Virus record (IMG/VR): IMGVR_UViG_3300042549_000664
Coordinates: 1-37,477 of that record
DNA length: 37,477 nt
Strand: one strand, 5' to 3'
Source: a virus
The stretch's first letter is position 1, and each line of letters starts with the position of its first letter. Positions 2,614 to 37,477 of this stretch are shown here, one piece after another. The translations under genes were made by a program, and so were the position numbers. The notes beneath the pieces are model-generated. The model ran no database searches and was not told where the DNA came from. It saw only the letters and a list, made by a program, of their open reading frames with translations.

Positions 2614-3168
2614 TTAGTTCTCCAGTCGAGGGGTTACATCTACCACATCGGCATCGACCAACCGTGCATTAGCTTGGGCCAGTGCTTCAGTAATACTGAT
2701 CGATCCGCCCAACTCCACGGTTTTAATCTCGCCGTACTTCTTACGATTATGCGCTCCCATGAGCCACTTGCGCGTGTCAATCTTTAATCTGGATCGCTGC
2801 ACATCTTCTAACGAGTCGTCGGCATCGGCAATCTCAATGATCTCGCCAGCCATGAACTCGGTACGCATCTCTTGCGCTTCGGTGAACAACTGGTTTCTCT
2901 CAGGGTTCTTTTTGATCCACCGATAAAAGTCGTTGTAGTCGATGTCGCGCTGGTCATCCCGCAGTATCTGCGACAGGCTGTTGCCGTGTGCAATTGAGTC
3001 AATGACCCGCATGAATATAAATTCATACTGAGCCAATGCGAGTGCCTTCACCTCCGGGGGTGACTTAGCAAGGCTACGAGGCGCAGGTTCTAACCAGTCG
3101 GGTATCTCAACAGCGGACTCGACGAGTGCGTCATCTGTGCCTACGGATTTAGATTGTCTTGATTCCAT
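2614..3168 (-). CDS. terS: Terminase small subunit, Sf6-like
   Basis: 184 residues from ATG 3168; the frame is open to an ATG at 3228, but that start would lie upstream of the candidate promoter. The body has the small-terminase pattern seen in Sf6-type proteins: GNSLSQILRDD, DFYRWIKKNPE (DNA-binding helices), MAGEIIEIADADD, then RLKIDTRKWLMGAHNRKKYGE. Family knowledge: this subunit recognises the pac site and hands DNA to TerL, whose gene follows one base later. The tandem-repeat region upstream is a plausible, unproven pac or origin candidate. No clear ribosome site precedes ATG 3168. Confidence 0.88.
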   Translation of the reverse strand: MESRQSKSVGTDDALVESAVEIPDWLEPAPRSLAKSPPEVKALALAQYEFIFMRVIDSIAHGNSLSQILRDDQRDIDYNDFYRWIKKNPERNQLFTEAQEMRTEFMAGEIIEIADADDSLEDVQRSRLKIDTRKWLMGAHNRKKYGEIKTVELGGSISITEALAQANARLVDADVVDVTPRLEN

Positions 3169-3171
3169 AGT

Positions 3172-3208
3172 GGTACGGATACTAGCACAGACTTGAGAAA
3201 CTTTGCAA
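3172..3208 (-). promoter_or_regulatory. Candidate leftward promoter for terminase/late block
   Basis: On the minus strand TTGCAA (3208-3203) and TAGTAT (3184-3179) are separated by 18 bases, each matching four of six sigma70 consensus positions. The expected transcript start, near 3172, would leave only about four bases before ATG 3168. The -10 overlaps the recurring word TGTGCTA (plus-strand TAGCACA 3182-3188). Moderate match only. Confidence 0.4.
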
Positions 3209-3336
3209 CACGGGTAAATAGAAGCCATTGGCTACTTGTGTAATTTGAAAAAAAAAATAAATTGTTCGTGATGCCTCCGTCAGCGTGGCCCTGTCGCCGT
3301 CGGCCCTACCCGGGGCCTCGATCCGCATGGCACGCG

Positions 3337-3463
3337 GCAGCCACGGCAGCCAGTGGATCACGGCAGCCAGCGGATCACGCGCAGCCAGTACCCGGCAGCC
3401 ATTGGCCATGTGACCATGTGCCACAATGTGCAGCCATTGGCTAAGTGCAGCCAGTGGCACGGG
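3337..3463 (+). repeat. Tandem GCAGCCA repeat array (iteron-like)
   Basis: GCAGCCA occurs seven times, starting at 3337, 3346, 3363, 3381, 3395, 3430 and 3447, giving steps of 9, 17, 18, 14, 35 and 17 bases. Units two and three share GCAGCCAGYGGATCACG head to tail. Units five and six continue as GCAGCCATTGG, sharing CCATTGG with the nearby palindromic promoter elements. The near-helical 17-18 base spacing resembles iterons or multi-site operators. Which protein binds is unknown. Confidence 0.8.
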
Positions 3464-3622: not shown

Positions 3623-3681
3623 GCCCATTGGAATAAACTATTGATACCGTAGCACAATAGATATAATTATTCGCCAGTGGC
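3623..3681 (+). promoter_or_regulatory. Palindromic promoter element, copy 1
   Basis: A 59-base element closely repeated at 4179-4237. The outer arms are CCATTGG (3625-3631) and the imperfect partner CCAGTGG (3674-3680). The inner arms are CTATTG (3638-3643) and CAATAG (3655-3660). A TATAAT hexamer lies at 3662-3667 with TTGATA at 3641-3646, a short 15-base spacer. The nine bases between the inner arms differ from copy 2 and here include TAGCACA (3650-3656). It reads as a promoter wrapped in operator half-sites. Confidence 0.65.
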
Positions 3682-3709
3682 TTGACAATACACAAAATGC
3701 CTATATAAT
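3682..3709 (+). promoter_or_regulatory. Strong rightward early promoter (sigma70-type)
   Basis: A perfect TTGACA (3682-3687) and perfect TATAAT (3704-3709) are separated by 16 bases. The start point would fall near 3716, 38 bases before the first early gene (3754). This is the best consensus promoter I found in the window and probably drives early block A with host RNA polymerase. Confidence 0.85.
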
Positions 3710-3714
3710 TGTTT

Positions 3715-3734
3715 ACATGGCAACGTCGCCATGT
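3715..3734 (+). promoter_or_regulatory. Hairpin at predicted 5' end of early transcript
   Basis: ACATGGC (3715-3721) and GCCATGT (3728-3734) are perfect inverted arms around a six-base loop. It begins at the predicted transcript start and ends a few bases before the AGGA ribosome site (3741-3744). It may stabilise the mRNA 5' end or tune initiation; this is inferred from position. Confidence 0.5.
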
Positions 3735-3753
3735 AACGTTAGGACAATTTATT

Positions 3754-3993
3754 ATGACCAAATACGATCCAAAAGACTACATCGCAAACCCTAAAAAATA
3801 CTCACTGTTCAAAACGGCCACACTAAACAAAGAGTTAATCCATGAAAACGGCAGTACCAAACCCGGCCAAATTGTTAGCTTGGAATTCTTGGGCGAAGTA
3901 TGGAATCAGTTATACCGTCGCCATGAGCCACTGTATCGGTTAAACACTGGCGACACTGTATTCGCTGGCGCACTTGGAGGGTTTGTACTGTGA
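3754..3993 (+). CDS. First early protein, unknown function (79 aa)
   Basis: Begins MTKYDPKDYIANPKKYSLF at ATG 3754, preceded by TTAGGACAATTTATT, a ribosome site of the type repeated before several early genes. An in-frame ATG at 3709 lies inside the promoter and is rejected. The protein is small, soluble and mixed in charge, with FLGEVWNQLYRRHEPLYRL in the second half. I do not recognise a family. As the first gene after the strongest promoter it is a candidate host-takeover protein, by position only. Its stop overlaps the next start (GTGA). Confidence 0.8.
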   Translation: MTKYDPKDYIANPKKYSLFKTATLNKELIHENGSTKPGQIVSLEFLGEVWNQLYRRHEPLYRLNTGDTVFAGALGGFVL

Positions 3994-4166
3994 CCAACCT
4001 AGACAAAATCGAAATCTTCAAAGTATGGTTTTCAAGCAACGGCCACTGGATATATCCAAGCCGTGCCGCAGCCGTTAACGCTTGGGCAAATCGCGGGATC
4101 GAAAATCTACCCGATGCGCCCCAAGCCGTAGGCCACTATCCTGAAATTTACAATTGGACAGAGTAA
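3990..4166 (+). CDS. Small early protein with GTG start (58 aa)
   Basis: A 58-residue protein whose GTG start (3990) overlaps the TGA of the previous gene as GTGA, the coupling used throughout this operon. It reads (M)TNLDKIEIFKVWFSSNGHW, then PSRAAAVNAWANRGIENLPD and ends IYNWTE. No family recognised. The first part (FKVWF..NGHWIYPSRAAAVNAW) looks like a compact alpha-beta unit. It is followed directly by the long palindrome at 4173-4244, which may end transcripts from the first promoter here. Confidence 0.72.
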   Translation: MTNLDKIEIFKVWFSSNGHWIYPSRAAAVNAWANRGIENLPDAPQAVGHYPEIYNWTE

Positions 4167-4172
4167 ACCATA

Positions 4173-4244
4173 AAAAACGGCCATTGGAATAAACTATTGA
4201 TCTATCAATTCAATAGATATAATTATTGTCCAATGGCCGTTTTT
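4173..4244 (+). promoter_or_regulatory. Palindromic promoter element, copy 2, inside a terminator-like inverted repeat
   Basis: A 16-base perfect inverted repeat has arms at 4173-4188 and 4229-4244 (A-run, CGGCCATTGGA and its complement, T-run). It encloses the 59-base element (4179-4237) also found at 3623-3681. Inside are CTATTG/CAATAG arms, ATTGAT/ATCAAT arms (4196-4209) and TATAAT at 4218-4223. RNA entering from the left would form a G+C stem followed by five U, like a terminator. RNA started here would begin near 4230, in the right arm. Confidence 0.7.
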
Positions 4245-4282
4245 ATTCCTATAATTCAATCACTGCAATCCGCAGTTAACCA

Positions 4283-4298: not shown

Positions 4299-4439
4299 AT
4301 GAAAATCGGCGATTACATTACAACCACAATTTACGGCCATCCAGTGCGCGTTTTGGTTTTGGCTATCCATGCTGCCGGGACAATTGACGTGCAACGCGCA
4401 GACGGCCAATGCTTCCGTGTATCGGGTTTGGTATTATGA
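4299..4439 (+). CDS. Small beta-rich early protein (46 aa)
   Basis: 46 residues starting MKIGDYITTTIYGHPVRV at ATG 4299, nine bases after AAGGA. The pattern GDYITTTIYGHPVRVLVL.. and ADGQCFRVSGLVL suggests a small SH3-like beta barrel, judged from alternating hydrophobic residues only. It is the first gene after the second promoter element, and its TGA overlaps the next ATG (ATGA). No named family recognised. Confidence 0.75.
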   Translation: MKIGDYITTTIYGHPVRVLVLAIHAAGTIDVQRADGQCFRVSGLVL

Positions 4440-4603: not shown

Positions 4604-5236
4604 ATGAAAATCTCTATCCAAGCCTCCGCTATCCGTGCAGCCACTATCTGCGCCGCCAAAAAAGACATTCGCTATTATTTGCAAGGCGTTTACATCAACG
4701 TTGCGCACCGTGACTATGCGACGGTATGCGGCACCGATGGCCATGTGCTTTTTGCAGGCCGTGCGGCCATTGATACCCTTGATGGCCAGCAAGCCGCGCC
4801 ATGGTCAATGATCGTACCGCTAGACGTGGTTAAAAAGATCAACAAACGCGCAGCAGCCGTGATTTTAGAATCATTACCCGATGGCACTTATTTACTTGAT
4901 GGTACACGGTTTACGCCCCTTGATGGCCGTTTCCCCGATTATTCCCGCGTGATCCCCGGCATCGGCCAAATACAACCGGAAAGCGCAAAGCCGGGGCATT
5001 TTGACTATGCGCTGATCGTACGCGGTAATGATGCACTAAACACCTACTATGGCGGGAAGATTAAAGTGTATCCATTGGAGCAACGGGGCAACGATAGCGC
5101 GGTAATGCACAACGGGGAAAATGTGGCCGTTGTCGTCGTCATGCCGATGCGAATTAAAGACGTTAACGGGTATCAAGGGTTTAATGAGAATCTGCCCGAT
5201 GCACTGGCCGCCGAGCCCGTGTTAGCTGCCGCCTGA
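4604..5236 (+). CDS. Shortened DnaN-like sliding clamp (beta-clamp domain II plus part of domain III)
   Basis: 210 residues that align by eye with the second half of bacterial DnaN. DIRYYLQG (21-28) matches E. coli DVRYYLNG, TDGH (44-47) matches TDGHRLA, and SMIVPLDVV (68-76) matches HSVIVPRKGV. DGRFPDYSRVIP (107-118) matches DGRFPDYRRVLP, and VVVMPMRI (177-184) matches the C-terminal VVMPMRL. The order and spacing fit domain II. Domain I and roughly the first half of domain III are missing, so the protein is a little over half the usual 366 residues. It probably tethers the phage DNA polymerase (13368) or mimics the host clamp. The ring stoichiometry is unknown. It is preceded by the repeated AAGGA module. 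Confidence 0.83.
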   Translation: MKISIQASAIRAATICAAKKDIRYYLQGVYINVAHRDYATVCGTDGHVLFAGRAAIDTLDGQQAAPWSMIVPLDVVKKINKRAAAVILESLPDGTYLLDGTRFTPLDGRFPDYSRVIPGIGQIQPESAKPGHFDYALIVRGNDALNTYYGGKIKVYPLEQRGNDSAVMHNGENVAVVVVMPMRIKDVNGYQGFNENLPDALAAEPVLAAA

Positions 5237-6589: not shown

Positions 6590-6886
6590 ATGACTAAAAA
6601 ACCCGACAAAACCGCCGCCAGTGACCGCCTGAAGGCCATCGCTGAACGCCTTGGCCTAGACGATACCCGATTAGCCGAGTATCTAGGCGTGAGCGTGTCC
6701 ACCCTTAGACACTGGACGATCGGCACACGCGCACCCGGCGCAGCCGTTGACCGCCTGCTAGACGTACTCGGCACAATGGAAGCCCTTGCGCCTAGCCTGC
6801 ACGCCCAACTGCTGCCAAGCCCCGCGCCCAAGCGGGGTAGGCCACCGACTAAACCCGCAGCCGAGCATAAGGAGGCCGAGCTATGA
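6590..6886 (+). CDS. Cro/CI-like helix-turn-helix DNA-binding protein
   Basis: 98 residues. The segment LGLDDTRLAEYLGVSVSTLRHWTIGTR (21-47) is a standard HTH_3-type unit, with the turn GVS at 33-35 and STLRHW as the recognition helix. A later KRGRPP (81-86) is AT-hook-like and sits in a Pro/Lys-rich tail. The protein probably regulates early or middle phage transcription by binding an operator, but no cognate site is obvious beside it. Its gene starts after a 27-base gap from the micropeptide and overlaps the next gene as ATGA. Confidence 0.83.
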   Translation: MTKKPDKTAASDRLKAIAERLGLDDTRLAEYLGVSVSTLRHWTIGTRAPGAAVDRLLDVLGTMEALAPSLHAQLLPSPAPKRGRPPTKPAAEHKEAEL

Positions 6887-37195: not shown

Positions 37196-37477
37196 TTAAG
37201 ACGCTCCGTGAATAACTGCAAAGTTGATTACCACAGCTTCGGATAAATTGCCACCGCTAATATTTCGCAACGTAATCGTACAAGTGCCTGCGCTCATGCT
37301 GCTGATCCAACAGTTATACGCACCCGATGTAGCGCCAGAACCTACGTTCAAAATAATCACATCTTTGGCGCTGATTAATCTGTTAGTCAGCGTAAAAGTT
37401 ACATTGGTCAACGTATTTAGCGTTGCACCGTTTGTTGTAATTTGGCCCATGCTTGCGTTAACCGTAACGCCAGTTGA
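37196..37477 (-). CDS. Small structural-region protein, C-terminal part (joins 1-250 on the circle)
   Basis: The C-terminal portion of the junction-spanning gene. The visible part reads from the window end (STGVTVNASMGQITTNG) to TAA near 37196. The frame contains an internal Met at 37450 that is not the true start, because the same frame continues upstream into bases 127-250 of the repeated end and reaches ATG 250. The C-terminal half (ISAKDVIILNVGSGATSGAYNCWISSMSAGTCTITLRNISGGNLSEAVVINFAVIHGAS) is a beta-rich pattern. On the closed circle it gives about 134 residues. It sits just upstream of the small basic gene, HNH and portal. Confidence 0.85.
   Translation of the reverse strand, partial: STGVTVNASMGQITTNGATLNTLTNVTFTLTNRLISAKDVIILNVGSGATSGAYNCWISSMSAGTCTITLRNISGGNLSEAVVINFAVIHGAS
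37351..37477. repeat. Terminal direct repeat, right copy
   Basis: Identical to 1-127; see the left copy. Removing it leaves a 37,350-bp circle. Confidence 0.97.

Follow-up and report, generated by a model that had tools for sequence, protein, structure and literature searches.

Layout of the terminase/early region

The window, by which we mean the whole 37,477-nucleotide stretch of DNA analysed here, is the complete genome of a tailed phage, with an identical 127-bp direct repeat at its two ends (positions 1–127 and 37351–37477), the end repeat of a circularly assembled genome. The phage belongs to the group of DSL-LC05, a lake phage assembled from a metagenome and with a predicted lytic lifestyle (PMC10611076): the large terminases of the two are 78% identical, and IMG/VR contigs encode versions up to 99% identical to that of the window. 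The 37.4-kb genome is of a type that combines short length with a family-B polymerase and P22-like head genes, and has a P22-type portal and an Sf6-type small terminase. No integrase was found among the ORFs checked in the window, nor is there one in the DSL-LC05 annotation.

Two gene sets diverge from the region under study. The leftward set starts with the small terminase gene (2614–3228), and the rightward early genes, all on the plus strand, start at 3754 with a gene for a 79-aa protein of no known family (3754–3993), followed by a 58-aa gene (3990–4166) and a 46-aa gene (4299–4439). Further downstream, a gene at 6590–6886 (plus strand) encodes a 98-aa XRE-type helix-turn-helix (HTH) protein. 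The 210-aa protein encoded at 4604–5236 has a match, below the cut-off, to the Pfam domain DNA_pol3_beta_2 of DNA polymerase sliding clamps, an assignment that conflicts with its best PHROG match, annotated as RusA-like.

Two 59-bp elements (3623–3681 and 4179–4237), the first ahead of the 79-aa gene and the second just behind the 58-aa gene, lie in this early region; their coordinates and sequence are as given in the preliminary description of this DNA. They form a direct repeat with 556-bp spacing, made of the blocks 3622–3645/4178–4201 (96% identical) and 3655–3681/4211–4237 (89%) separated by nine variable bases in each copy. The copies agree exactly over AATAAACTATTGAT-N9-CAATAGATATAATTATT, and the genome has no further match to the core pattern. 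The exact element has no match in viral contigs, the surrounding 1,372-bp region has none in named phages, and no Rfam family scores above threshold for the element, the low matches being eukaryotic miRNA noise.

Each element had been described as a set of nested palindromes with CCATTGG outer arms. The arms are there, but each is a 7-bp palindrome (CCA-N-TGG) on its own, so the outer pairing in copy 1 amounts to two short palindromic sites and is not evidence of one hairpin. A reading of copy 1 as an RNA stem, based on a G-U wobble, was dropped when CCANTGG turned out to be a palindrome with a free centre. A better reading of the 59-bp element is two palindromic CCANTGG putative operators that lie 49 bp apart and flank a conserved AT-rich core. 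In copy 1 these are the left operator CCATTGG (3625–3631), the core AAACTATTGAT-N..-ATAGATATAATTATT (3635–3671, plus strand) and the right operator CCAGTGG (3674–3680); in copy 2 they are CCATTGG (4181–4187), the core (4191–4227, plus strand) and CCAATGG (4230–4236). An IHF site was also considered for the element, and rejected: the consensus fits copy 1 alone and fails in second copies.

The element is a recurrent module with a predicted promoter downstream

In sister phages, a degenerate-pattern search recovered two copies of the element from each genome of L086/L087/L100 (one lineage), L088, L089 and L093, and a single copy from L094. The preliminary description had proposed a duplicated promoter module, and this is borne out well beyond the window: we could align 11 modules from six lineages (the window included), which share one layout, with the operators, the CTAT/ATAG/AATT core and the –10 box all in register. 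Invariant across the 11 are the left CCATTGG, CTAT, ATAG, AATT, the right CCANTGG and the core ATAA of the downstream –10, and the Shine-Dalgarno sequence is mostly so. The stretch between the operators reads CTAT...ATAG...AATTRTT (3635–3671 and 4191–4227 in the window) and is conserved in 11/11 modules.

Both copies in the window contain an inner TATAAT, which had been taken as the promoter; separate, conserved TATAAT boxes lie downstream of the elements, at 3704–3709 and 4250–4255. The inner box is kept in only 4 of the 11 copies and missing in seven, versus 11/11 for the downstream –10, and is thus unlikely to be the promoter. Instead, each element appears to sit just upstream of its own σ70-type promoter, 5′ hairpin and Shine-Dalgarno sequence. 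The predicted promoter P1 (3682–3709, plus strand) has a TTGACA and a TATAAT box with a 16-nt spacer and agrees with the consensus at 12/12 positions, and P2 (4226–4255, plus strand) has a weak –35 (TTGTCC), an 18-nt spacer and a TATAAT –10. The same two types are found in the relatives: first copies have TTGACA-16-TATAAT, second copies a weak TTRNCC-18-[TG]ATAAT. The right operator is centred 27 bp upstream of the –10 in all six first copies, whereas all five second copies have it 17 bp upstream, a difference of one helical turn; in copy 2 of the window the right operator overlaps the P2 –35.

A 5′ leader hairpin (ACATGGC/GCCATGT, 3715–3734, plus strand) begins at the predicted P1 transcript start, and a second one (ACTGC/GCAGT, 4262–4276, plus strand) lies at the predicted P2 start. 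Compensatory changes are present in three of the six pairs among the relatives compared, and such covariation of hairpins placed at the predicted starts lends independent support to the downstream promoters. The genes that follow the modules swap places: the MQIINHK gene stands behind copy a in L088 and copy b in L093, and the MNKHRLHY gene behind copy b in L089 and copy a in L094, which has one copy only.

Copy 2 has the shape of a terminator

In copy 2 the outer arms are part of a 16-bp perfect inverted repeat (4173–4188/4229–4244) with A- and T-run flanks, as had been noted before. The resulting terminator-like hairpin (4173–4244, plus strand) has a 40-nt loop and ends in a T-run (TTTTT, 4240–4244) that lies within the –35/–10 spacer of P2. 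The predicted RNA fold is stable (–29.4 kcal/mol, z –7.4), and none of 200 shuffles folded as well; copy 1 (z –1.7) falls within the shuffle range. A stable GC-containing stem followed by a U-run, as present in copy 2, is what defines an intrinsic terminator, although the loop is atypically long, and a terminator finder limited to loops of 3–8 nt missed the hairpin.

Among the relatives, the outer CCATTGG/CCAATGG pairing is intact in 5/5 second copies (z –3.7 to –8.1) and not consistently so in first copies; the first copy L087a, with CCATTGG/CCATTGG, has no conserved hairpin (z +1.0). This is the pattern expected if the second copies alone are transcribed, from P1. The complete terminator shape recurs in L089 copy b, where the arms extend through the A- and T-runs (z –8.1) and one pair is changed from G-C to C-G with compensation relative to the window. 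L087b, L088b and L093b keep the pairing (z about –4) and have no U-run, which is thus absent from three of the five second copies, and from all first copies.

Of the earlier idea that the second copy both ends and starts RNA, the combination of a terminator-like stem with a promoter stands, and L089b has it too; the U-run missing from three of five second copies speaks against extending it to second copies at large. For copy 2 of the window we lean, by a small margin, towards a working terminator. Termination near 4240–4246 followed by restart at P2 is plausible for the window lineage, not as a general property, and a relay switch dividing the operon is possible there.

An XRE-type protein is the candidate CCANTGG-binding regulator

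CCANTGG is not confined to the two elements. An array of putative operators occupies the divergent terminase/early intergenic region (3225–3457), with sites at 3225, 3350, 3399, 3434 and 3451, mostly GCCANTGGC, and the control region of the window holds 11 sites in all versus 0.5 expected (p 7e-12). In most of the relatives that carry the HTH protein, CCANTGG is the top-enriched 7-mer palindrome, whereas in L007, L011, L015 and L020, in which the protein is present, other palindromes rank above it. The full 15-bp operator consensus is itself palindromic, T-n-A-C-CCANTGG-G-T-n-A; in the window lineage and in L026 the bases at ±4 are G/C, not C/G. In L083 and in L068/L070/L072, CCANTGG falls within the –35/–10 spacer, and inspection of the sequences puts the operator of L083 and L068 some 5–6 bp from the –10.

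The HTH protein (6590–6886) matches Pfam HTH_31, Xre-like-HTH and HTH_3 above the cut-offs. Its structural model has five helices (mean pLDDT 79), and His41 lies within the third (residues 36–44), the recognition helix. At least two CCANTGG sites are present in 20 of 23 HTH-positive phages versus 2 of 16 HTH-negative ones. On the terminase tree the protein's presence changes only once; this co-occurrence thus counts as one event, not many, and a phylogenetically independent test of the protein with the array was uninformative for the same reason.

Stronger evidence, in our judgement, comes from the match between residue 41 and operator base ±4. The base is C in all 21 phages with Lys at the position of His41 (four of which have only one or two sites) and G in all six with His or Asn; L035 has Ala there and a different palindrome, ACANTGT. 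On the HTH tree one and two origins of the G type are not separable (p-AU 0.33), and the link of Lys with C and of His or Asn with G therefore represents at most about two events. A fold search gave weak E-values only, the leading matches being XRE-type regulators. The antitoxin MqsA is among the best sequence and fold matches and among the closest solved relatives, and residue 41 aligns with MqsA Arg101, which together with Asn97 contacts DNA at TAACCT-N3-AGGTTA (PMC4901048), a site that agrees with the phage operator in length and spacing.

Taken at the level of sequence comparison, the 59-bp elements are probably operators of the 6590–6886 protein; we consider it likely, with good though not full confidence, that this protein binds CCANTGG, and somewhat favour repression over activation as its mode of action. 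If the residue-41 rule is true, changing His41 to Lys would shift the preference from GCCANTGGC to CCCANTGGG, which makes this one-residue/one-base specificity rule concrete and testable.

Other 7-mer palindromes are enriched in the terminase/early region of HTH-less sister clades and in L035, the HTH protein of which is divergent: CGCnGCG in L033, L039, L050, L052, L053 and L055, TTGnCAA in L038, L077 and L078, CGTnACG in L034, L056 and L058, TACnGTA in L057 and L059, and both ACAnTGT and TGTnACA in L035. The distribution suggests that regulator and operator alphabet are exchanged together between clades.

Alternative readings of the element

The preliminary description placed the promoter inside the palindrome, with copy 2 stopping and restarting RNA as a relay that divides the operon. 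The inner TATAAT of both window copies and the strong terminator-shaped stem of copy 2 are what this reading would draw on; the loss of the inner box from most homologous copies, all of which retain the downstream –10, the leader hairpins that begin at the start points of the downstream promoters, and first copies devoid of a conserved hairpin make it very improbable. Only slightly better placed, and still highly unlikely, is a functional RNA structure (a riboswitch, ribozyme or processing site) formed by the nested arms in place of protein-binding DNA. While the second copies do keep their outer pairing and fold better than shuffles, the first copies lie upstream of their own promoter and have not kept it, the inner pairs are not maintained past CTAT/ATAG (L088b and L089b are mismatched), and Rfam holds no such family.

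If the CCANTGG array were a replication origin with iterons, or a packaging site to which the small terminase binds, the promoter copies would be by-products. The array does adjoin the small terminase gene, and the closest sister, L003, has DnaA-box-like TTATCCACA repeats in the same intergenic region (reverse complement 2585–2625). However, DnaA boxes, including the L003 TTATCCACA type, are absent from the window region, which has no clear skew turn either, and this counts against an origin. Other members have CCANTGG sites within their promoter cores, the sites return at a second promoter some 600 bp into the early genes, and the operator base follows the HTH residue (in a comparison that covered the HTH protein), so that we regard an origin or packaging site as quite unlikely. 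Somewhat less so, but unlikely all the same, is that the CTAT...ATAG core is a box for a host transcription factor, e.g. an OxyR-like ATAG-N7-CTAT, with the CCANTGG arms secondary. Conservation of the core is strong across all 11 modules, and the same degenerate pattern occurs in other viral contigs, ATAG-N7-CTAT being seen in L090–L092, L095–L099 and L101; yet a control pattern with swapped halves matches at least as many unrelated viral contigs (14 versus 9), 84,980 bacterial and archaeal genomes yield only four matches to the pattern, scattered over unrelated taxa, and more distant operator-bearing members are without the core. An OxyR/LysR-type host site was rejected on these grounds, the core being shared no more often than the equally frequent swapped-halves control.

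A model of the early cassette and its likeness to known systems

The reading that we prefer, with a probability of roughly two in three, is that of a reused early promoter-operator cassette under the control of the XRE-type protein that the phage itself encodes; in the window lineage the second copy has a terminator shape as well. The sequence layout of the cassette is solid, its order being operator, AT-rich core, operator, σ70 promoter, 5′ hairpin and Shine-Dalgarno sequence. Conservation of the AT-rich core is a point that the operator model does not account for. The regulator gene lies downstream on the same strand and is probably part of the same early transcription unit. A dimer of the regulator would bind each CCANTGG palindrome, and as the protein accumulates it would turn down its own early promoters, forming a negative feedback loop; via the 3225–3457 array it probably has an effect on the terminase side too. 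At P2, where the right operator covers the weak –35, bound protein would exclude RNA polymerase directly, while at P1, with a predicted start at 3715–3717, the operator is one helical turn further upstream and abuts a perfect –35, and the effect is less certain. In the window lineage the copy 2 hairpin may end some P1 transcripts at about 4240–4246, with P2 restarting transcription at about 4262. We think it unlikely that copy 2 works as a true relay, a 72-bp stretch whose arms would act at once as terminator stem, repressor operators and the –35 region of P2, with the regulator setting both P1 read-through and P2 restart, and clades swapping the regulator together with the palindrome alphabet (CCANTGG, ACANTGT, CGCNGCG, TTGNCAA).

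As far as the literature searched shows, gene control in DSL-LC05-type freshwater phages is undescribed, and the model assigns a likely regulator and DNA code to this widespread group of uncultivated freshwater phages. It would also extend the promoter-terminator cassette idea from T4 to an unrelated phage type, with operators added. The cassettes in question, promoter early stem-loops (PeSLs), are mobile regulatory cassettes of T4-like phages (Arbiol 2010; Comeau 2014, cited in PMC4503421). As they are summarised there, the likeness lies in a short intergenic unit that combines an early promoter with a stem-loop terminator, occurs repeatedly in the early region and has shuffled genes behind it; promoter and stem-loop terminator are joined in one unit in copy 2 and L089b only, and gene shuffling behind the repeated cassettes is seen here as well. 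Unlike PeSLs as so summarised, the cassettes are in a 37.4-kb DSL-LC05 relative, not a T4-like myovirus, carry paired palindromic putative operators for a phage protein, have the terminator in some copies only, and number one or two per genome.

Cluster A mycobacteriophages (PMC9283540) likewise have a single short site for a phage repressor in many copies, both in promoters and between genes. Those stoperators are 13-bp asymmetric sites of temperate phages, oriented with transcription and bound by a monomer with two DNA-binding domains (PMC9283540), whereas the sites here are palindromic and clustered in the early control region, the candidate binder is a single small HTH protein, and no integrase was found among the ORFs checked. 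Also comparable are MqsA and other XRE autorepressors (also P2 C, Aca2 and C-proteins), with which the 6590–6886 protein shares an HTH_3/XRE fold with a recognition helix; the MqsA palindrome and that of the phage are of the same size (TAACCT-N3-AGGTTA versus TnACCC-ANT-GGGTnA). The phage protein differs from MqsA in having no zinc domain and no identified toxin partner, and would act as a phage early-region regulator with an operator array.
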